Part shown: piece after piece, positions 1 through 9,457 of the stretch | How positions within the stretch are numbered: position 1 is the first letter of the stretch | Layout of the letters: each line of letters begins with the position of its first letter | Source of the DNA: Halobacteriales archaeon SW_10_68_16 | GTDB lineage: Archaea; Halobacteriota; Halobacteria; Halobacteriales; Haloarculaceae | Reading direction: 5' to 3' | DNA: 9,457 nt | Assembly: GCA_003023485.1 (NCBI GenBank) | Contig: PXSG01000032.1 | Span: forward strand, 1-9,457 | Position numbers and translations under genes: made by a program | Notes under the pieces: model-generated | What the model saw: the letters and a program-made list of their open reading frames with translations, nothing else | Database searches by the model: none | Told to the model about the DNA's origin: nothing

Positions 1-702
1 GTCACTCGACAGCGGTGCGTCGAGTTCGACGGTCACCTCGTCGTGGGTTCCGGGGTCGAGGTAGGCTGACACACCCCGGACCGCGTCGGGGTTGGCGCCG
101 GAGTCGTTCTGGATTGCGACGTAGCCACCCTCGGTGAGTTCGACGTCCTCGACGGTGACCTCCCCGCCGCCGCTGGTCTGGTCGGGGAATGTCACGGCGG
201 CGTCGTGCTGTTCGTAGGTGACCGGCCCAGTCGAGTTCGTCGCGCCGCTCTGGGTGTTGACCGTCAGTTCGACCTCGCTGGTCCCGGCGTTCTGTGGGTT
301 CTGGACGTTCTGGAGGACGACCACGATCTCGTCGCCGGCCTCGATGGTGTAGTTGCCGCCGAGGTCGATCCGGACGGCGGCGCCGTCCTTCTGGCCGCTG
401 ACGGAACCGATCTCGTCGGCGGTCACGTCCACGCGGGACCCGCGGTCGTCGTCGCCGCGGTCGATGCCGATCCGTTCGATGTCGTTGACGCCGACGTTAC
501 TCACGTCCGCCGTGGGCTGGGCGAGGCTGTAATCGACGAGGGCATCCTCGAATGCCGCGCCGGTCACGGCGTCGCCGCTCTCGACGGTCATCGTGATCGC
601 GTGCGTGGAATCCGCCTCGTTCGGTCCTGTCGTTGGGGTGTCATGGCCCACCGGGAAAAGTCCTTGTGGCCGAGGCCTGCCTCGGGTGTAGCCGTTTGGC
701 AT
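1..702 (-). CDS. DUF7282-like surface-type protein, N-terminal part, truncated by window edge
   Basis: The minus strand is open for 234 codons from an ATG at 702 to the window edge, so the C-terminus lies outside. The product is acidic and rich in Thr, Gly, Asn and Val, like haloarchaeal exported beta-sandwich proteins. Residues about 20-145 resemble the repeat of haloarchaeal surface glycoproteins (TPTTGPNEADSTH, then NYTIEAGDEIVVVLQNVQNP). Residues about 185-234 (VTVEDVELTEGGYVAIQNDSG, then AYLDPGTHDEVTVELD) match what I remember of the DUF7282 domain, which has no known enzymatic role. Proteins of this kind normally carry a signal peptide, but none is visible: the first 20 residues are basic and polar (MPNGYTRGRPRPQGLFPVGH). 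The frame is also open upstream of 702, so the start is uncertain; GTG at 651 and ATG at 591 are alternatives. I chose 702 because an AT-rich element lies about 25 nt upstream. A 5'-truncated gene is possible. It is divergent from leuS. Confidence 0.7.
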   Translation of the reverse strand, partial: MPNGYTRGRPRPQGLFPVGHDTPTTGPNEADSTHAITMTVESGDAVTGAAFEDALVDYSLAQPTADVSNVGVNDIERIGIDRGDDDRGSRVDVTADEIGSVSGQKDGAAVRIDLGGNYTIEAGDEIVVVLQNVQNPQNAGTSEVELTVNTQSGATNSTGPVTYEQHDAAVTFPDQTSGGGEVTVEDVELTEGGYVAIQNDSGANPDAVRGVSAYLDPGTHDEVTVELDAPLSSD

Positions 703-720
703 CCGACGCGAGATGGCAGT

Positions 721-731
721 CCTTTTGATTT
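721..731. promoter_or_regulatory. AT-rich TATA-like element shared by two divergent genes
   Basis: CCTTTTGATTT is the only AT-rich stretch in the 48-bp gap. Its centre is about 25 nt from the leuS ATG at 751 and about 25 nt from the minus-strand ATG at 702. That is the spacing expected for a leaderless haloarchaeal promoter in either direction. Read on the minus strand it is AAATCAAAAGG. Direct evidence is position and composition only. Use for leuS is likely; use for the minus-strand gene is less certain because that start is doubtful. Confidence 0.45.
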
Positions 732-750
732 CGGACCCTGAGGGTAGGGT

Positions 751-3621
751 ATGGACTACGAGCCACAGGCCGTCGAGTCGAAGTGGCGCAAGCGGTGGGC
801 CCGGGAGGGGCGCTACGAGGCCGACCCCGACGACCCGGACCCGACGTTCATCACCGTCCCCTATCCCTACCCCAGCGGCGGGATGCACCTCGGGCACTGC
901 CGCACCTACACGGTCCCGGACGTCTACGCCCGCTACCGGCGCCTGCAGGGCGACAACGTCCTCTTTCCCATCGCCTGGCACGTCACCGGCACGCCCATCG
1001 TCGGCGCCGTCGAGCGACTGAAGGAGGGCGACGAGGACCAGATGTCCTCGCTGCAGGACGCCTTCGGCGTGCCGGAGTCGGATTTGCAGGACCTGGAGAC
1101 GCCGATGGGCTATGCCCGCTATTTCATCGAGGAGGCCGACTCCAGTTACAAGCGCGGGATGCGACAGATGGGCCTGTCCATCGACTGGCGCCGGGAGTTC
1201 ACCACCAACGACGACCGCTACTCGAAGTTCATCACCTGGCAGTACGAGACGCTCAAAGAGCGGGGCCTGCTGGAGAAGGGGCTGCATCCGGTCGATTTCT
1301 GTACCAACGAACGCCAGCCCGTCACCGACCACGACCTCCTGGAGGGCGAGGACGCCGACCACCAGGAGTTCACGCTCGTGCGCTTCTTCCAGGGCGATGA
1401 CCTCGACGCCGCGGACGCGACTGTCTTCCCGATGGCGACGCTGCGCCCCGAGACGATACGGGGGGTCACGAACGCCTACGTCCACTCCGAGGCGACCTAC
1501 GTCCGGGCGACCGTCGACGGCGAGGAGTGGGTCGTCAGCGAGGCCGCGATCGAGAAACTCGACCTCCAGGCCCGCGAGGTCGACATCCACGAGCGGTTCC
1601 CGGGGTCGGAGCTGGTCGGCGAGGAAGTCACCAATCCGGTCACCGGCGACGAGTTCGTCATCCTCCCCGCGACGTTCGTCGACGCCGACAACGCCACCGG
1701 CGTCGTGATGTCCGTCCCGGCCCACTCCCCGGACGACATCGTCGCCCTGGACGAGGCTAAAGCCGGCGCCGACGACATCGCGGCCGAGTACGGCGTCGAC
1801 GCCGACGAGATTCGGGCAATCGAGCCCATCCCCATCCTCGAGATCGAGGGCTACGGCGAGATTCCCGCGCGGGACGCCGTCGAGGCGGCGGGCATCGACT
1901 CGACCGACGACCCGGAGTTGCACGAGGTCACCGAAGCGTTGTACCAGGACGAGTTCCTGAACGGTCGCCTGCTGGACTCCTATGGCCAGTTCGCGGGCGA
2001 GGTCATCGAGGACGTCCGCGAGCGTTTCCGGGAGCACCACCGCGCGGCCGGCCGGTTCGACACCATGTACGAGTACACCGAGGAGGTGGTCTGCCGGTGT
2101 GGCGGCGAGGTCGAGGTGTCCGTCCAGGACACCTGGTTCATCCGGTACAACGACGAGGCCTGGCAGGCGAAGGCCCGCGAGGCCGTCGAGCGGATGGAGG
2201 CTATCCCGGAGAACACCCGCAAGCAGTACGACGACACCATCGATTGGCTGGAGGAGTGGCCCTGCATCCGCAACTACGGGCTCGGAACCCGCCTCCCCTG
2301 GGACGAGGACTTCGTCATCGAACCCCTCTCGGACTCGACTATCTACATGGCCTACTACACCATCGCGCCCCGCATCCGGGACATCCCCGTCGAGGACCTG
2401 GATCGGGACTTCTTCGATACGCTCTTTTTCAGCCCCGAGGGCGAGGACGCACCCGAGGGGCTCGACGTCTCGGTGGAGGACCCCGACGAGCGCGCGCTCG
2501 ACCTGCGCGAGGAGTGGGACTACTGGTACCCCGTCGACTTCCGGTGTTCGGCCAACGACCTCATCCGCAACCACCTCACCTTCTACCTCTACCACCACGC
2601 GGAACTGTTCGAGGAGGAGGACTGGCCCCAGGGGATCACCTCGATGGGAATGGGCCTGCTCGAGGGCGAGGCGATGTCCTCCTCGAGGGGGCACGTCGTC
2701 CTGCCCGGCGAGGCCATCGAGCGGTACGGCGCCGATACCGTCCGCTTTTTCCTGTTGAACTCCGCGGAACCCTGGCAGGACTACGACTGGCGGGCCGACG
2801 AAGTGGGGTCGACCCGCGACCAACGGGATCCCATCGACCGCTGGCTCCTCTCGAAGCTCCAGGCGACGGTCCGGGACGTGACCGCCGCGCTCGACCGCTT
2901 CGAGACCAGGTCGGCCAGCCAGGCGGCCTTCTACCGCTTCGAGGAGAATCTGCGCTGGTACCGCCGGCGGACCGACACCGACCGGCCCGCGGCGGCCTGG
3001 ACCCTGCGGGAGGTCCTGGCGACGCGACTGCGCCTGCTGGCGCCGTTCGTCCCCTTCATGGCCAACGAACTCCACGAGGAACTGACCGGCGAACCCGCCG
3101 AAGACGGCACCGAAGCGGGGCTACCCGCAGAGGACGCGGCCTGGCCCGAACCCGACCCCGCGTTCGAATCGCCCGAAACGGAGGCCCGCGAGGAACTGGT
3201 CGGGGATCTCGTAGAGGACGTCCGCGACATCGTCGACGTCACTGGGACGGATCCGGAAACGGTCCGCGTCTACGTCGCCGCCGACTGGAAACGGGAAGTC
3301 TTCGAGACGGTCCGCGAGGTCGGCGACGACGTCGGTGCCGTGATGAGCGCGGCCATGGACGACGAGGAGTTGCGAGAGCGCGGCGAGGCGGTCAACGACC
3401 TCGCGGGCGACCTGGTCGAATTCGCCCGCGGGCGCGACGACGACGAACTGGACGCGCTCGCGTCGGTCGACGAGCTGTCTGTCTACCAGGCGGTCGCGGA
3501 CTTCCTCGAAGGGGAGTTCGACGCCGCCGTCGAGGTCTACGCCGAGGACGGGAAGGCCGTCGACCCCGAGGACAAGGCCGACCAGGCGGTCCCGTTCCGG
3601 CCGGCGGTCCACCTGGAGTGA
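751..3621 (+). CDS. leuS: Leucyl-tRNA synthetase (archaeal/eukaryotic type)
   Basis: Charges tRNA-Leu with leucine in the cytoplasm (class Ia synthetase). The protein has 956 residues. The signature HLGH is at residues 46-49. The CP1 editing domain follows, with the threonine-rich motif TLRPET at 230-235 and an editing-site Asp near 328-329 (VPAHSPDDI). A Cys-x-Cys pair sits at 448-450. The archaeal block GLGTRLPWD and IEPLSDSTIYMAYYTIA leads to the catalytic loop at 641-645. There the KMSKS equivalent reads AMSSS, followed by Arg-Gly-His: both signature lysines are absent. The anticodon helical domain (IDRWLLSKLQ, FYRFEENLRWYRRRTD) and the C-terminal domain ending in PFRPAVHLE are present. 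Compared with Pyrococcus LeuRS, about 20 residues appear to be missing between EVGSTRDQ and IDRWLLSKL (residues 691-695). The ATG at 751 is supported by the family start (YEPQAVESKWRKRW) and by a TATA-like element 25 nt upstream. The function is secure; full activity is not proven because of the gap. Confidence 0.96.
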   Translation: MDYEPQAVESKWRKRWAREGRYEADPDDPDPTFITVPYPYPSGGMHLGHCRTYTVPDVYARYRRLQGDNVLFPIAWHVTGTPIVGAVERLKEGDEDQMSSLQDAFGVPESDLQDLETPMGYARYFIEEADSSYKRGMRQMGLSIDWRREFTTNDDRYSKFITWQYETLKERGLLEKGLHPVDFCTNERQPVTDHDLLEGEDADHQEFTLVRFFQGDDLDAADATVFPMATLRPETIRGVTNAYVHSEATYVRATVDGEEWVVSEAAIEKLDLQAREVDIHERFPGSELVGEEVTNPVTGDEFVILPATFVDADNATGVVMSVPAHSPDDIVALDEAKAGADDIAAEYGVDADEIRAIEPIPILEIEGYGEIPARDAVEAAGIDSTDDPELHEVTEALYQDEFLNGRLLDSYGQFAGEVIEDVRERFREHHRAAGRFDTMYEYTEEVVCRCGGEVEVSVQDTWFIRYNDEAWQAKAREAVERMEAIPENTRKQYDDTIDWLEEWPCIRNYGLGTRLPWDEDFVIEPLSDSTIYMAYYTIAPRIRDIPVEDLDRDFFDTLFFSPEGEDAPEGLDVSVEDPDERALDLREEWDYWYPVDFRCSANDLIRNHLTFYLYHHAELFEEEDWPQGITSMGMGLLEGEAMSSSRGHVVLPGEAIERYGADTVRFFLLNSAEPWQDYDWRADEVGSTRDQRDPIDRWLLSKLQATVRDVTAALDRFETRSASQAAFYRFEENLRWYRRRTDTDRPAAAWTLREVLATRLRLLAPFVPFMANELHEELTGEPAEDGTEAGLPAEDAAWPEPDPAFESPETEAREELVGDLVEDVRDIVDVTGTDPETVRVYVAADWKREVFETVREVGDDVGAVMSAAMDDEELRERGEAVNDLAGDLVEFARGRDDDELDALASVDELSVYQAVADFLEGEFDAAVEVYAEDGKAVDPEDKADQAVPFRPAVHLE

Positions 3622-3646
3622 CGGGCATACCTTGACCCATTCGTGA

Positions 3647-3850
3647 TTACAGGTCCTCGAAGGTCTGTGCGGCGACGACACCGAGCAGCAGCGAGAACAG
3701 CGCACGCGAGAGCGGGAACCCGATGCCGGCGGCCGACAGCGTCGCGAACCCGACGACCGCGACGACGGCCGCGGCGACCACGCCGAAGGCTCGCGTCCAG
3801 ACGTCGCCGTCGTTCCCGTCGCCGTTCCCGACGTCCGGGGTCTCGGCCAT
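3647..3850 (-). CDS. Small two-segment membrane protein, unknown function
   Basis: A 67-residue protein. The first 16 residues are polar and acidic (MAETPDVGNGDGNDGD). Two hydrophobic stretches follow, roughly residues 21-42 (FGVVAAAVVAVVGFATL) and 45-63 (FPLSRALFSLLLGVVAAQTF), and it ends in FEDL. This looks like a small helical-hairpin membrane protein; haloarchaeal genomes carry many uncharacterised ones. I do not recognise the family and assign no function. The ATG at 3850 has a good TATA-like element 26 nt upstream, as expected for a leaderless transcript, which is the main reason to believe the gene is real. It is convergent with leuS (25 nt between stop codons) and divergent from serB (78 nt between starts). 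The reading frame is open far upstream of this ATG, but that extension is antisense to serB and the kinase. Confidence 0.75.
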   Translation of the reverse strand: MAETPDVGNGDGNDGDVWTRAFGVVAAAVVAVVGFATLSAAGIGFPLSRALFSLLLGVVAAQTFEDL

Positions 3851-3870
3851 GGGCGGACGTCGGTCTCCCC

Positions 3871-3880
3871 GATCATAAAC
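3871..3880 (-). promoter_or_regulatory. TATA-like promoter of the small membrane protein
   Basis: Read on the minus strand the sequence is GTTTATGATC, with core TTTATGAT. Its centre is about 26 nt upstream of the ATG at 3850, matching the leaderless haloarchaeal arrangement. It stands out as A/T-rich in GC-rich surroundings. Confidence 0.6.
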
Positions 3881-3887
3881 GTCCCCT

Positions 3888-3927
3888 CGAACCGCGGGGT
3901 TTGAAACCCGGCGCCGCGAACCGCGGG
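3888..3927 (+). promoter_or_regulatory. serB promoter with palindrome and 11-bp direct repeat
   Basis: CGAACCGCGGG occurs twice, at 3888-3898 and 3917-3927, with 29 nt between equivalent positions. Between the copies, 3897-3909 is GGGTTTGAAACCC, two perfect 6-nt inverted arms around one G. The palindrome centre at 3903 is 26 nt before the serB ATG, where the TATA box of a leaderless gene should be. No better TATA box is visible. The second repeat ends 1 nt before the ATG. An operator for a regulator is an inference; the repeats themselves are directly visible. Confidence 0.45.
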
Positions 3928-3928
3928 T

Positions 3929-4588
3929 ATGACGCTGGTCGCGTTCGACTTCGACGGGACGCTCTCGGACTCGGAGATGACGATCCTGCTGGGCGAGCAG
4001 TGCGACCGGATCGAGTTGCGCGAGGAGGCGGTGGCCGACCGCATGGGCGAGATCACCCGCCGGGCGATGAACGACGAGATCGGCTACGCCGAGAGCCTCC
4101 GCCGGCGGTGTGCGCTGCTGGCGGACCTGCCCCTCGCGGACGCCGAGGCGGCCTTCGCGGAGGTCACGCTGCGCCCCGGCGCGACCGATATTGTCGCCCG
4201 CCTGCGCGAGGCCGGCGTCTTCGTCACCATCCTCACCGGCGGGTTCGAGCGCGGTGTCGAGGCAGCACTCGAACGGGAGGGTGTCGCCGTCGACGCAATC
4301 GTGGCCAACCGCCTGCCCGCCGCCGACGGGCGGCTCACCGGCGACGTCGAGGGGCCGCTCGTCGAGGGCACCAAAGACGGGGCCCTCGATGACCTGGTCG
4401 CCACGTCGGGGGAGTCGCTGACCGACACTGTAGCCGTCGGCGACGGCGCGAACGACCTGCCGATGCTGGAAGCCACGGGCCTGGCCGTGGGGTTCGACCC
4501 CAAGCCGGCCGTCGAGCCGAGCTGTGACGTGGTCGTCGAGACGATGGGCGAACTCGACGCGCTCTTCGAGCGGGAGGGACTCTACTAG
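3929..4588 (+). CDS. serB: Phosphoserine phosphatase, HAD family
   Basis: A 219-residue cytoplasmic phosphatase predicted to hydrolyse O-phosphoserine to serine and phosphate, the last step of the phosphorylated serine pathway. All four HAD motifs are present: motif I DFDGT with nucleophile Asp7 and acid/base Asp9; motif II Thr103 in ILTGGF; motif III Lys149; motif IV GDGANDLPML from Gly171, with Asp172 and Asp176 as Mg2+ ligands. The sequence after motif I (LSDSE) and the alpha-helical cap at about residues 14-75 are typical of SerB rather than of other HAD enzymes. Length is normal for archaeal SerB without an ACT domain, and nothing looks broken. The ATG at 3929 directly precedes the motif I strand (TLVAFDFDGT). 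It is monocistronic as far as can be seen: it is divergent from the small membrane gene, and the downstream kinase has its own promoter. A related HAD phosphatase with another substrate is possible but less likely. Confidence 0.9.
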   Translation: MTLVAFDFDGTLSDSEMTILLGEQCDRIELREEAVADRMGEITRRAMNDEIGYAESLRRRCALLADLPLADAEAAFAEVTLRPGATDIVARLREAGVFVTILTGGFERGVEAALEREGVAVDAIVANRLPAADGRLTGDVEGPLVEGTKDGALDDLVATSGESLTDTVAVGDGANDLPMLEATGLAVGFDPKPAVEPSCDVVVETMGELDALFEREGLY

Positions 4589-4640
4589 GCGACAGTAGCA
4601 GTAGCTGCTGCCGGTCCGGTTTCCCATTGAAACAGTACAT

Positions 4641-4648
4641 CTTTTACG
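4641..4648 (+). promoter_or_regulatory. TATA-like promoter of the histidine kinase
   Basis: CTTTTACG lies with its centre about 25 nt before the ATG at 4670, with a purine-rich GAAACA at 4629-4634 in roughly the place of a BRE. The arrangement predicts a leaderless transcript and separates the kinase from serB, which ends 81 nt before it. Confidence 0.55.
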
Positions 4649-4669
4649 TCGTGGGAATCGTGTGAGGCT

Positions 4670-6922
4670 ATGGGCAGTCCGATCCACGTGCTGTACGTGG
4701 ACGCCGACGCCGACGTTGCGGATCTGACGGCCACCCACCTCGAACGCGAGGACGACCGATTCACCGTCGAGACGGCAGCCAGCACGACCGCAGGGCTCGA
4801 CCGCCTCGACGCCGATGTCGACTGTGTGGTCTCGGCCTACGAGTTCCCCGACACCGACGGACTGGCGTTTCTCGAAGCGGTCCGCGAGGATTATCCCGAC
4901 CTGCCGTCCGTTCTCTTTCCCGGAAAGGGGTCCGAGGCGGTCGCGGCCGACGCCATCGACGCGGGCGTCACCAACTACCTGCAGCGGCGAGACGGGACCG
5001 ACCAGTACGCGGTCGAGGCCGCCGGGGACCCCATCTACACGCTGGACGCGGACGGTATCTTCACCCTCGTCAACGACGCGTTCTGCGAGGTGACGGGCTA
5101 CGACGAGGCCGACCTCGTGGGCGCACACTTCGCCTCGATACTCGCCCAGTCGGACAGGCTGCGCGGCGAGGAAGTGGTCCGGTCGCTTCGCGACCCGTCC
5201 GTCGACCGCCGGACGAGCGAACTGACCCTCGTCTGTCGGGACGGCAGTCCGGTTCCCTGTGAGATCCACCTCACGCCGCTGCCAACCCGCGGCGACGGGT
5301 CCTTTTGCGGGACAGTCGGCGTCGTCCGTGACATCAGCGCCCGCACGGAGCGCGAACGGGAACTCGAACGCGAGCGCGACCGCTTCGAGACGCTCCTCGA
5401 GCGCGTCCCGACGCCGCTCGTCTACGGCCACGTGATCGACGACGACATCCGTGTCACGCGAGTCAACGCGGCGTTCGAGGACGTCTTCGGTTACGACGCC
5501 GACACACTCGTCGGCGAGTATCTGGACGAGTACATCGTCCCGGCCGAACACGGCGACGAGGCGGACACGCTCAACGTGACTGTCCGCCGGGAGGGCAACG
5601 TCGAACACGAGGTCAGGAGAGAGACGACCGACGGCATGCGTGATTTCCTCTTCCGGGCGATTCCACTCCACGAGACCGGCGAGGACACCGTCGAGGCCAT
5701 CGGCGTCTACACGGACATCACCGAGCAGAAAGAACGCGAGCGGGCGATGCGAGAGCAACGCGAACGGTTACAGGAACGCGAGGAGAAACTCATCCGCCTG
5801 CGCAACTACACGCAGGACCTGGCGTACGCGGACACCCCGGCCGAGACGGCGACCGTCGCGTTGAACGCCATCGACGAGATCCTGGGGTTCGACCTCGGGG
5901 CCGTCTTCACGCAGGCCGAGACACAGGAGGGCGTCCTCGAAGTCGTCGAGGTGCTGAACCAACGACAGATGGAGAAGATGTACGGCGGGATCCCCGTCTT
6001 CCTGCGTGACGCCCCCGCCGGGACCCACTCCGAACTCGCCTGGGAGGTCTTCGAGAGCGGCGAGTCGGTCTTCCTCAACGATACCGCCGAGTCGGACCTG
6101 CTCGCGCGCAAGTCCCCGTTCGGGAGCCTGATGCTGTACCCCATCGGCGACCACGGCGTCGTCCTGCTGGCCGCGACGACCCTCGAGGCGTTCACCGAGA
6201 CCGAGGAGATCCTGCTGGACCTGCTCGCTGCGACCCTCGAGAGCGCGTTCGACCGCCTCGACTGGGAGCGGGAACTGCGCCGCCAGCGGGACGCGCTCGA
6301 ACGCCAGAACGAACGCCTCGAAGAGTTCGCCTCCGTCGTCTCCCACGACCTCCGGAACCCCCTGCAGGTGGCCGACCTGCGCCTGGAACTGGCCCGCGAG
6401 GAGTGTGACAGCGACCACCTGGGGGACGTCGCGGACGCCCTCGACCGGAGTCAGGCGCTCGTCGACGCCCTCCTGACGCTCGCCCGCGAGGGGGAACCCG
6501 TCGGCGAGACGGAACCTGTCGACCTGGGCGAGGTCGCCGAAATCTGCTGGCACACGACGGCAGCCCCCGACGCGACGTTCCGTGTCGAGACCGACCGGAC
6601 GGTCCTGGCCGACCGGAGCCGGCTCCGGCAACTCTTCGAGAACCTCTACCGGAACGCGGTCGAACACGCTGGCGACGACGTGACCATCACGGTCGGAGCG
6701 ACGGACGAGGGCTTCTACGTCGAGGACGACGGGCCCGGAATCCCGGCCGAGGAGCGCGAGTCGGTCTTCGAGGGTGGCTACTCCACCAGTGCCGACGGGA
6801 CGGGCTTTGGCCTGCGCATCGTCGAACAGGTCGCGACGGCACACGGCTGGGAGGTCCGGGTGACCGACGGCACCGGGGGCGGCGCACGGTTCGAGGTCTC
6901 CGGCGTCGATGTCGCCGAATGA
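4670..6922 (+). CDS. Hybrid sensor histidine kinase, REC(degenerate)-PAS-PAS-GAF-HisKA-HATPase
   Basis: A 750-residue soluble sensor kinase with no membrane segments, so it should sense a cytoplasmic signal. Domains in order: receiver-like domain 4-113; PAS 116-225 (DPIYTLDADGIFTLVNDAF); coiled-coil helix 226-240; PAS 241-355 (VNAAFEDVFGYD); helix 356-378; GAF about 379-535; HisKA with phospho-acceptor His559 in SHDLRNP; HATPase with N-box Asn658/Asn662 (ENLYRNAVEH), G1 DDGPGIP at 687 onward and G2 GTGFGLRIV. The kinase core is intact. The receiver domain is not: the phospho-acceptor position in VVSAYEFPDTDG is Ala56, and the conserved Thr/Ser before Gly-Lys-Gly is Pro84, although Lys86 and the acidic residues Asp11 and Asp13 remain. 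The usual helical linker between receiver and first PAS is also absent (DQYAVEAAGDPIY). The start is set by the family start (IHVLYVDAD) and the TATA-like element 25 nt upstream. No cognate response regulator is visible. The signal is unknown. Confidence 0.93.
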   Translation: MGSPIHVLYVDADADVADLTATHLEREDDRFTVETAASTTAGLDRLDADVDCVVSAYEFPDTDGLAFLEAVREDYPDLPSVLFPGKGSEAVAADAIDAGVTNYLQRRDGTDQYAVEAAGDPIYTLDADGIFTLVNDAFCEVTGYDEADLVGAHFASILAQSDRLRGEEVVRSLRDPSVDRRTSELTLVCRDGSPVPCEIHLTPLPTRGDGSFCGTVGVVRDISARTERERELERERDRFETLLERVPTPLVYGHVIDDDIRVTRVNAAFEDVFGYDADTLVGEYLDEYIVPAEHGDEADTLNVTVRREGNVEHEVRRETTDGMRDFLFRAIPLHETGEDTVEAIGVYTDITEQKERERAMREQRERLQEREEKLIRLRNYTQDLAYADTPAETATVALNAIDEILGFDLGAVFTQAETQEGVLEVVEVLNQRQMEKMYGGIPVFLRDAPAGTHSELAWEVFESGESVFLNDTAESDLLARKSPFGSLMLYPIGDHGVVLLAATTLEAFTETEEILLDLLAATLESAFDRLDWERELRRQRDALERQNERLEEFASVVSHDLRNPLQVADLRLELAREECDSDHLGDVADALDRSQALVDALLTLAREGEPVGETEPVDLGEVAEICWHTTAAPDATFRVETDRTVLADRSRLRQLFENLYRNAVEHAGDDVTITVGATDEGFYVEDDGPGIPAEERESVFEGGYSTSADGTGFGLRIVEQVATAHGWEVRVTDGTGGGARFEVSGVDVAE

Positions 6923-6968
6923 ACGCTTCGAGGGCGGATCGGTCGGATAAATTAAGCGTCGCCGCCGA

Positions 6969-7006
6969 TTTTAAATACGAGGAGGCGGTCTTATGTCCAG
7001 TTGGAG
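6969..7006 (+). promoter_or_regulatory. Promoter and Shine-Dalgarno of the FIST-sensor operon
   Basis: TTTTAAATA at 6969-6977 is the strongest TATA-like element in the window. Its distance to the ATG at 7012 (about 39 nt) predicts a transcription start near 6999 and a short leader of about 12 nt. GGAG at 7003-7006 sits in that leader, 5 nt before the ATG, and can pair with the 16S 3' end. A second AT-rich stretch, GATAAATTAAG at 6946-6956, lies just upstream and might be an alternative box or a regulator site. This is unlike the leaderless pattern of the other genes here and is the main reason to start the FIST gene at 7012. Confidence 0.6.
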
Positions 7007-7011
7007 TAACG

Positions 7012-8109
7012 ATGGAGACGACGTACGTTCGGGACACGGACGGGCTGCTGGAAGCGCCCGGTGACTGTGAGGCCGACGAATCGGTCCGGGGCGTCCTGAT
7101 CCTGTCCACAGCGGCGACCGCACCCGATCCCGCCGACGTCGACCCGACGCTTCGGGGTCTCTCGGTGCCGGTGTTCGGCGGTGTCTTCCCCGAGATACTC
7201 CACGAAGGGGAGAAACGCGAGACGGGCGCGCTCGTCGCCGGGCTGGCGGTCGAACCCCGGGTGACGGTCGTCCGCGGGCTGGGCGACCCCGGGACTGATT
7301 TCGCGGCGGCGCTGCCCGGGGAGACACCCGCAGGGATGACCGCGTTCGTCCTGGTCGACGCGTACGCGACACGCGTCGAGGATTTCGTCACGAGCCTGTT
7401 CAACGCCTACGGCGTCGGCGTCAACTACGTCGGCGGCGGTGCCGGCTCGCTGGAGGAAGACGGCCGTCCCTGCCTGTTCACGGGCGAGGGACTGCTCGCG
7501 GACGCAGCCGTGTTCGCGACCGTCGAGACCCCCACCAGCGTCGGCGTGCGCCACGGCTGGGAGGGGATCGCCGGCCCGTTCCGCGTGACCGAGGCCGACG
7601 GCCCGACGCTCGCCCAACTGGACGGCGAGCCGGCCTTCGATGTCTACCGGCGCGTCGTCGAGTCCGACGCCGGCGTCTCGATCGATCCCGATGACTTCTT
7701 CGAGGTGGCCAAGTCCTACCCGTTCGGGCTCAGCCGCCTGGAGGGCGAGAAGATCGTCCGCGACCCCTTCGAGGTGACCGACGACGGCGCCCTCACCTGC
7801 TTCGGGCACGTCCCCGAGGGGGAGTTCGTCCACATCCTCAAGGGGGACCCCGACTCGCTGGTCGCGGCCGCCGGCGAGGCGTACGGGGAGGCCACGGACG
7901 GCGGCCCGGACGGCGAGGTGCTCTTCTTCGATTGCATCTCGCGAGTACTGTACTTGGAGGACGCGTTCGCGGAGGAACTGGACGCCGTCGGCGGCGCCGA
8001 TAGCCCCACGGTGGGCGCGCTGACGGTCGGCGAGATAGCGAACGACGGCGAGGGACACCTCGACTACTACAACAAGACGGCCGTCGCAGCGGTGATCAGG
8101 GAGCTCTGA
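7012..8109 (+). CDS. FIST-domain signal-sensing protein (FIST_N + FIST_C)
   Basis: A 365-residue soluble protein with the FIST_N domain (about residues 20-200) and FIST_C domain (about 205-345). Supporting blocks are GGGAGS at 141-146 followed by the CLFTGEGLLADAAVFAT strand, SYPFGLSR in the middle, and the C-terminal CISRVLYLEDAFAEEL. FIST domains occur in bacteria and archaea beside or fused to signalling proteins and are proposed to bind small ligands such as amino acids; that role comes from family knowledge, not from this sequence. No domain appears truncated. An upstream in-frame ATG at 6919 overlaps the kinase stop codon, but the 31 extra residues would span the promoter and do not resemble the family, so 7012 is preferred. 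Only 3 nt separate it from the next gene, a GAF-like/PAS sensor, which argues for one operon and for the FIST protein delivering a ligand signal to that sensor. Confidence 0.88.
   Translation: METTYVRDTDGLLEAPGDCEADESVRGVLILSTAATAPDPADVDPTLRGLSVPVFGGVFPEILHEGEKRETGALVAGLAVEPRVTVVRGLGDPGTDFAAALPGETPAGMTAFVLVDAYATRVEDFVTSLFNAYGVGVNYVGGGAGSLEEDGRPCLFTGEGLLADAAVFATVETPTSVGVRHGWEGIAGPFRVTEADGPTLAQLDGEPAFDVYRRVVESDAGVSIDPDDFFEVAKSYPFGLSRLEGEKIVRDPFEVTDDGALTCFGHVPEGEFVHILKGDPDSLVAAAGEAYGEATDGGPDGEVLFFDCISRVLYLEDAFAEELDAVGGADSPTVGALTVGEIANDGEGHLDYYNKTAVAAVIREL
8098..8103 (+). promoter_or_regulatory. Shine-Dalgarno for the chimeric sensor gene
   Basis: AGGGAG lies inside the end of the FIST gene and ends 9 nt before the ATG at 8113. 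Together with the 3-nt intergenic gap it supports translation of the downstream gene from the same mRNA and supports 8113 as the start. Confidence 0.45.
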
Positions 8110-8112
8110 GGC

Positions 8113-9457
8113 ATGGCCAGCCCGTCCGGGACGAAAATCCAGGTCCTCTACGAGATCGCCCTCTCGATCCGGCCGGGGGCGACCCTCGCGGAGACGGTGC
8201 GGTCGGCCGTCTCGACGTACCTGGGGAAGCTCAACTGTTCGGCCGGGGCGGTCTTCGAGCGCCACGAGAGCCCCGACGGCCACCTCGAGTACGACCTCGT
8301 GGCGACCCTGCCGTCCCAGTCGACGCTCGCCGACGCGGTCCACGGCGCCCGCGAGCAGTTCCCCGAGACCGCCGGTGACCTCGACACGCTGCCGGTCGTC
8401 GACGAGAGCGACGGCACGCACCGCTACATCATGGACCTCCCGGAGTTCGGGGTGCTGGTGCTGGTCAGGCGGGGCAGCCCGCTTGATGAGGATATCCTGC
8501 TGTCGCTGCCCGAACTCAACGAGAAGCTCGCCACCGCCTGCAGCCGCGTCGTCGTCCAGGACCAGTACGAAACCCAGTACCGCGAACTGTTCGAAGAAGC
8601 GCCCGTGATGTTCGCGCTGACCCGTGACGAGGGCGGCGACCTGGTGGTCGAGGACTGCAACCGGGAGTTCGCCGAAACGCTGGGCTACGACTCGGTCTGG
8701 ACCGGCGAACTCTGGGGTCGCGACTCCTTCGTCGCGCTGACGCGGGCCGCGACCGTCACCGACACCGTGGGGCTCGGGACGGCGATCGTCAACGTCTACG
8801 GACGGTCGCCGGCGACGATCGCCCAGGCGGCGGCGACGCTCGACGACGCCGCGGGCGGCCGCCTGACGCTCGGCCTGGGGACCAGCACCGAAAAAGTGAT
8901 CGAGGACCTGCACAGCGCGTCGTTCGACCGGCCGGCGCGGCGCCTCCACGAGACGGTCGAACTTGTCGCCGAGTTTCTCGGCGGCGAGGGCCGCGTCAGC
9001 TACAGCGGCGAGTGTTTCGAGGTCGCGGAGTTCCCGGCGCTGGGGGCCGACGTCCCGGTGTACGCCGCCGCGCTCGGCTCGGCGACCAGGCGAGCGACGG
9101 GCCGGACGGCCGACGGCTGGCTCCCGCACAATATCCCCTTCGAGCGACTCGACGACGCCTTCGAGACGATCGCAGCGGTGGCGCGGGAGGCGGGGCGCGA
9201 TCCGGACGCCATCGCGACGGCGCCGTACGTGCCCGCGGCGGTCAGCAACGACCCCGAGGCAGCACGCGACGCGATCCGGGGGCACCTGGCCTACTACGTC
9301 GGCAGCGGCGAGGGGTACCGGCGGGCCGTCGCAGCGACGTTTCCGGACGCCGCCGACGCCATCGCCGAGGCGTGGCGGGCCGGCGACCGTGGGGAGGCGC
9401 GCGCAGCGGTCACCGACGGGATGATCGCGGCGCTGGGGGTCGCTGGCACGCCGGCGG
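8113..9457 (+). CDS. Chimeric protein: GAF-like/half-PAS sensor fused to LLM-class F420-dependent oxidoreductase (partial)
   Basis: One uninterrupted frame gives 448 residues before the window ends. Residues about 10-148 form a GAF-like sensor domain (KIQVLYEIALSIRPG, YIMDLPEFGVLVLVRRG) of the kind found in FIST-linked haloarchaeal kinases. A PAS domain starts at about 155 (YRELFEEAPVMFALT, VVEDCNREFAETLGYD) and stops after some 40 of its usual 100 or so residues. From Leu190 the sequence is a luciferase-like monooxygenase-fold enzyme: LGYDSVWTGELWGRDSF, then NVYGRSPATIAQ at 227-238, GGRLTLGLGTS at 248-258, and a C-terminal HLAYYVGSGEGYRR. It resembles the haloarchaeal LLM group I recall as TIGR04024. 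The first strand and helix of the barrel, roughly 20-25 residues of F420/flavin-site scaffold, are missing. No HisKA or ATPase domain is present. The last visible residues (AGTPA) are a conserved near-C-terminal block, so perhaps 30-60 residues remain outside. It may be a true fusion, an inactive deletion product or an assembly error. Confidence 0.85.
   Translation, partial: MASPSGTKIQVLYEIALSIRPGATLAETVRSAVSTYLGKLNCSAGAVFERHESPDGHLEYDLVATLPSQSTLADAVHGAREQFPETAGDLDTLPVVDESDGTHRYIMDLPEFGVLVLVRRGSPLDEDILLSLPELNEKLATACSRVVVQDQYETQYRELFEEAPVMFALTRDEGGDLVVEDCNREFAETLGYDSVWTGELWGRDSFVALTRAATVTDTVGLGTAIVNVYGRSPATIAQAAATLDDAAGGRLTLGLGTSTEKVIEDLHSASFDRPARRLHETVELVAEFLGGEGRVSYSGECFEVAEFPALGADVPVYAAALGSATRRATGRTADGWLPHNIPFERLDDAFETIAAVAREAGRDPDAIATAPYVPAAVSNDPEAARDAIRGHLAYYVGSGEGYRRAVAATFPDAADAIAEAWRAGDRGEARAAVTDGMIAALGVAGTPA
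8680..8691 (+). other. Fusion junction: microhomology between PAS and LLM coding sequence
   Basis: The 12 nt CTGGGCTACGAC encode Leu190-Asp193. These residues fit both partners: PAS cores commonly read N-x-x-F-x-x-x-LGYD, and LLM enzymes commonly read A-E-x-LGYDSVW. Residues before are purely PAS-like and residues after are purely LLM-like, and the frame is kept. This is what recombination, or an assembler joining two places at a short shared word, would leave. Confidence 0.7.

Follow-up and report, generated by a model that had tools for sequence, protein, structure and literature searches.

NosP proteins bind haem and NO via a FIST domain and are often encoded in operons with a kinase (PMC12570481). 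The window analysed here, a 9,457-nucleotide stretch of contig PXSG01000032.1 from Halobacteriales archaeon SW_10_68_16, resembles the NosP/NosK pair in that a FIST protein is encoded directly beside a histidine kinase. It differs in that the window kinases carry PAS/GAF modules and the window FIST protein scores only 27.9 bits to NF041558 (cut-off 450), so that it does not classify as a NosP nitric-oxide sensor. The second group of proteins to which the locus can be compared is the LLM-class F420-dependent oxidoreductases (TIGR04024; PDB 8qq8/1z69), whose PF00296 fold the LLM gene of the window would share, as judged from its sequence. The window copy differs from them in being without its first ~20 residues, and its intact relative P0001 stays under the cut-off of TIGR04024, the best NCBIfam model for this LLM (250.7 bits against 345.4). 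Finally, the excerpted text of PMC7299287 describes chimeric contigs, joined from two species via shared k-mers, as a known problem of metagenome assembly, and the window would be like them in that it joins the sequences of two species via a shared word. In the literature searched, we found no paper joining a PAS domain, a luciferase-like monooxygenase and a histidine kinase in a fusion protein, and none on a FIST domain in haloarchaea.

The features of the locus are collected in Table 1. Comparison of its sequences makes it very likely that the sensor-LLM fusion is a chimera which arose from two different haloarchaea in assembly or library preparation; the frame that begins at 8113 is probably not a real protein, and it adds no new system.

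Table 1. Features of the window around the sensor-LLM join
Feature	Coordinates	Strand	Evidence
Response-regulator/PAS/PAS/GAF histidine kinase, 750 aa	4670..6922	+	ORF; Pfam Response_reg, PAS, GAF_2, HisKA, HATPase_c
FIST-domain protein of the left-hand parent genome (396 aa)	6919..8109	+	Pfam matches over the cut-off to FIST (71.6 bits) and FIST_C (98.7 bits)
Sensor histidine kinase gene, 5' part, residues 1-193	8113..8691	+	Unnamed N-terminal module and first PAS half; 100% to P0047
22-base word common to both parents, the join	8670..8691	+	22/22 to the G105:C2 LLM; sensor alignment stops at 8691
LLM-class oxidoreductase gene of the other lineage, without first ~20 codons, cut by window end	8692..9457	+	98% DNA identity to G105:C2; Bac_luciferase 191.9 bits (cut-off 27.9)

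The open frame and its two intact relatives

The ORF list gives 8113-9456 on the plus strand as a single open frame of 448 codons that continues past the window end, where the 3' end of the LLM gene is cut. Pfam analysis placed PAS_8 at residues 155-204 and Bac_luciferase (PF00296) at residues 186-447, the latter entered at position 31 of the 314-position profile and with a score that assigns this part to the LLM or bacterial luciferase-like proteins. The first-pass annotation had described an in-frame switch from sensor to LLM at Leu-Gly-Tyr-Asp, and the single open frame, the Pfam calls and the alignment to the intact parents all place it there, at L190-G191-Y192-D193.

An intact counterpart of the sensor side was found in P0047 (488 aa), which is identical to the 8113 frame over residues 1-193 and then runs on through the second half of its PAS domain into a histidine kinase; PAS_4 (161-273) and HATPase_c (384-482) are above the Pfam cut-off and HisKA is slightly under it (25.2 against 26.9). 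The 90%-identity cluster of P0047 represents 5 contigs, the longest of 40.6 kb, and its members need not all be identical. As the 8113 frame holds half a PAS domain and no HATPase_c, it is not itself a PAS sensor histidine kinase, and comparison with P0047 confirms the earlier reading that the second half of the PAS domain and the kinase had been lost. Directly after LGYD, P0047 carries Arg and the window Ser; thus the sensor parent departs from the window immediately after 8691. This parent is known as a protein (P0047) and as 89%-identical DNA in the metagenome-assembled genome SW_9_67_25 (G001). When residues 1-193 were searched separately, 48 relatives were obtained, of which 45 list HATPase_c (PF02518; not listed for P0139, P0153 and P0159) and none lists the LLM domain PF00296. 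The N-terminal module of ~150 aa (8113-8560), which aligns in the FIST-adjoining sensors of five other genomes, matches no Pfam family at the thresholds applied; it had been described as GAF-like, a label at odds with Pfam, which gave no GAF match even at E <= 1.

On the LLM side, P0001 is a 324-aa protein starting MPTGVLVP and is 98% identical to the window LLM over the common part. A complete gene in G105:C2 is likewise 98%, not 100%, identical to the window LLM part, which makes it a relative rather than the exact DNA parent. The nearest solved chains of the LLM are methylene-tetrahydromethanopterin reductases (PDB 8qq8/1z69). Homology of the window LLM begins ~20 residues into P0001, and the (beta/alpha)8 barrel that it encodes would accordingly be incomplete. 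The earlier statement that the barrel has lost its first strand and helix holds as far as the first ~20 residues of P0001 are absent; that these residues are the first strand and helix we assume from knowledge of the family, not from a model.

The join and the nearest genomes of its two sides

The nearest genomes differ between the two sides of the join. Among the genomes compared, which are relatives and not the parents themselves, the nearest on the left is G001 (contig C76, locus L001), with 88% and 86% DNA identity to leuS (751-3621) over two aligned parts, followed by G138 (84% and 78%, over less of the length) and G083 (76% and 72%). The window LLM, in turn, is 98% identical in DNA to G105, 88% to G108 and 76% to G001, and the best sensor match within G105 is only 36% identical. 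No leuS match at E <= 1e-50, in DNA or protein, was obtained in G105 or G108. Such a missing match is by itself weak evidence of lineage, because leuS was unmatched in nine of the 12 genomes searched by DNA and six of the nine searched by protein, including genomes that possess the FIST-sensor pair (G102 and, by DNA only, G113). Judged from these sequences, one would not expect a genome whose sensor end and leuS are 86-89% identical to G001 to possess, barring transfer, an LLM with 98% identity to G105 and 76% to G001. Base composition contributes little: GC3 is 0.933 in the sensor and 0.918 in the LLM, which does not separate the parents across the join, and the higher overall GC content of the LLM side (0.748; the remaining five window genes have 0.679-0.712) is a hint only.

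Alignment to both parents showed that their similarities to the window overlap by 22 bases, at 8670-8691, where the identity to the G105 LLM begins and the alignment to the G001 sensor stops. The G105 LLM gene matches the window at 10 of 38 positions in 8632-8669, at all of the 22 in the word and at 753 of 765 in 8692-9456; the G001 sensor matches it at 167 of 188 positions in 8482-8669, 20 of 22 in the word and 45 of 140 afterwards. The common word is therefore 22 bases long, and not the 12-nt microhomology proposed before. Two genomes of 3 Mb are computed to have ~15 words of 22 bases in common by chance at 68% GC and ~1 at even composition. Window 1-8669 has no 20-base word in common with the 36 kb of LLM loci taken from G105 and G108, which indicates that such words are rare at any single place.

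From the intact parents (the sensor parent as a protein and as similar DNA in G001) and the common word, all of which are observed, we infer the step that made the join. The left part of the contig would come from one haloarchaeon, with leuS, a HAD hydrolase, a histidine kinase, FIST and a PAS sensor kinase. At 8670-8691 it would have been extended with the LLM oxidoreductase gene of another haloarchaeon, owing to the 22-base word present in both genes. LLM proteins often have LGYD at the join position (39 of the 54 in alignment A1, which drew on 54 of the 119 LLM proteins listed), as does the sensor, and GC-rich codon choice would give both genes one DNA sequence there, read in one frame. The frame is kept at the join because both genes carry LGYD in the same GC-rich codons; the in-frame join thus needs neither function nor selection, and the junction is in itself no evidence of function. 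The genome from which the left side truly derives very probably encodes, like P0047, a sensor with complete PAS and histidine-kinase domains that acts as a kinase beside the FIST protein. The locus may serve as a clean illustration: where genomes are rich in GC, a short motif common to two gene families can yield an in-frame join resembling a designed fusion. An assembly chimera was one of the views entertained in the first-pass annotation, and with both parents intact and different nearest genomes it is the one that fits best.

Some metagenome pipelines start at a word size of 33. An assembler that uses no words as short as 22 bases would not have made the join through the common word, and the source would then rather be a chimeric library molecule or a real recombinant. 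Such a recombinant would be a single strain that took up a foreign LLM piece and joined it at the 22-base word, so that its sensor kinase was broken and a non-functional hybrid was left. Haloarchaea readily exchange DNA, and the word appears long enough for microhomology-mediated joining; moreover, a FIST-sensor fusion in a sister lineage (P0151, P0153) suggests that real deletions may occur in this gene cluster. However, none of the searches has a second copy of the junction among its listed matches, and P0047 shows the sensor intact with the same residues 1-193. We consider a natural recombinant unlikely.

Search for other fused copies

It had been proposed to look for the same fusion in related genomes. 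The fused sensor-LLM form was absent among the matches listed from 146 genomes of the family, 392 genomes of the order, 72,556 plasmid records and viral contigs, and we therefore rejected a conserved fusion. The 8113 frame has matches in 113 of the 146 family genomes (E <= 1e-40) and 83 of the 392 order genomes (E <= 1e-100), those listed being LLM matches. Seventy-five plasmid records match it (15 listed), no single place in any of them spanning 80% of the query, and no viral contig is a confirmed relative. Of the 7,999 candidates scored in the protein search with the whole frame, 903 matched at E <= 1e-3; the 120 of these that were listed comprise 119 LLM proteins (58-62% query cover) and one sensor kinase, P0047 (43%), and none spans both sensor and LLM.

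Three matches reaching upstream of the join were inspected as candidate fusions and rejected. That in G076 (query 132-447) runs from the tail of a different gene through a stop codon into an LLM gene, and those in G053 (151-447) and G116 (172-447) are LLM genes with their own starts. The order-search matches in G387 and G397 begin at query 148 and 138 and have stops inside. About 10 matches from the family search begin at query 163-171 with 37-48% identity, which, by the match coordinates alone, fits the LLM's own first strand.

It is conceivable that the hybrid functions, the strand and helix of the PAS domain (~176-193) replacing those that the LLM barrel lacks at its start. In favour of this, the frame is open, the piece of the PAS domain preceding LGYD aligns with the LLM start in the alignment with LLM proteins, and the TIGR04024 profile alignment begins at residue 173; a structure model of the fused frame predicts that residues 176-178 form a short strand and residues 185-189 a helix. 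Confidence in this model is low (mean pLDDT 60.8, pTM 0.44; mean pLDDT 42.7 for a single-sequence model of P0001 as control), so that it decides nothing, and no conserved fused form is among the matches listed. With both parents intact and nearest to different genomes, we regard the sensor-oxidoreductase suggested by the first reading as highly improbable. The chance is very slim that an expressed hybrid attaches the sensor's unnamed N-terminal module straight to an F420-type redox enzyme beside a FIST protein.

The FIST and sensor kinase genes in related genomes

The gene at 6919-8109 encodes a FIST protein by both FIST_N and FIST_C; its start codon overlaps the stop of the 750-aa hybrid kinase by 4 bases, and the sensor begins 3 bases past its own stop. 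FIST proteins of this kind were found in eight of the 146 genomes of the family (E <= 1e-30). A sensor relative follows FIST in five of the eight (G138, G083 with two loci, G113, G144 and G102), the matched stretches being less than 30 bases apart, and HATPase_c is present in the FIST-following sensors of all six loci. In the other three genomes, the sensor lies ~44 kb from FIST (G103), FIST is at a contig end (G114) or FIST is fused to the sensor (G001). What the locus really holds is the haloarchaeal pair of a FIST gene and, directly behind it, a PAS sensor kinase gene. By analogy with NosP/NosK, the real operon would probably link a FIST sensor with histidine kinases.

These loci also bear on the earlier proposal that a deletion had joined a sensor gene to an LLM gene next to it in one genome. 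It would account for the kept frame, and the joined genes are on the same strand, but no LLM match at E <= 1e-8 occurs in any of the six FIST-sensor loci (4-14 kb read each), and the stretches around the LLM in G105 (20 kb) and G108 (16 kb) contain no match to FIST, sensor, HAD, kinase or leuS. In G102, the LLM and the FIST/sensor genes are on separate contigs, and in the window the two sides differ in their nearest genomes. Since the genes are non-adjacent in every locus read, we discarded this deletion, to which we give practically no chance.

The fusion of FIST to the downstream sensor mentioned above has the order FIST_N-PAS-histidine kinase, joined in frame, in P0151 (542 aa) and in L001 299-2146/P0153; FIST_C and the N-terminal module of the sensor are lost. 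Two slightly different proteins, each from its own source database, share this joint, and the P0151 cluster represents 4 contigs. This fusion may be genuine, though both proteins could stem from one site. In G001:C76, there is no hybrid kinase between HAD and FIST (L001 1140-1290), and a short deletion with a frameshift, not seen in P0151, lies inside the sensor (L001 2044-2180); the kinase loss and the frameshift would reflect either decay or assembly error. At the other end of the window, a minus-strand frame with a DUF7282 domain (1-540) is cut by the window start.
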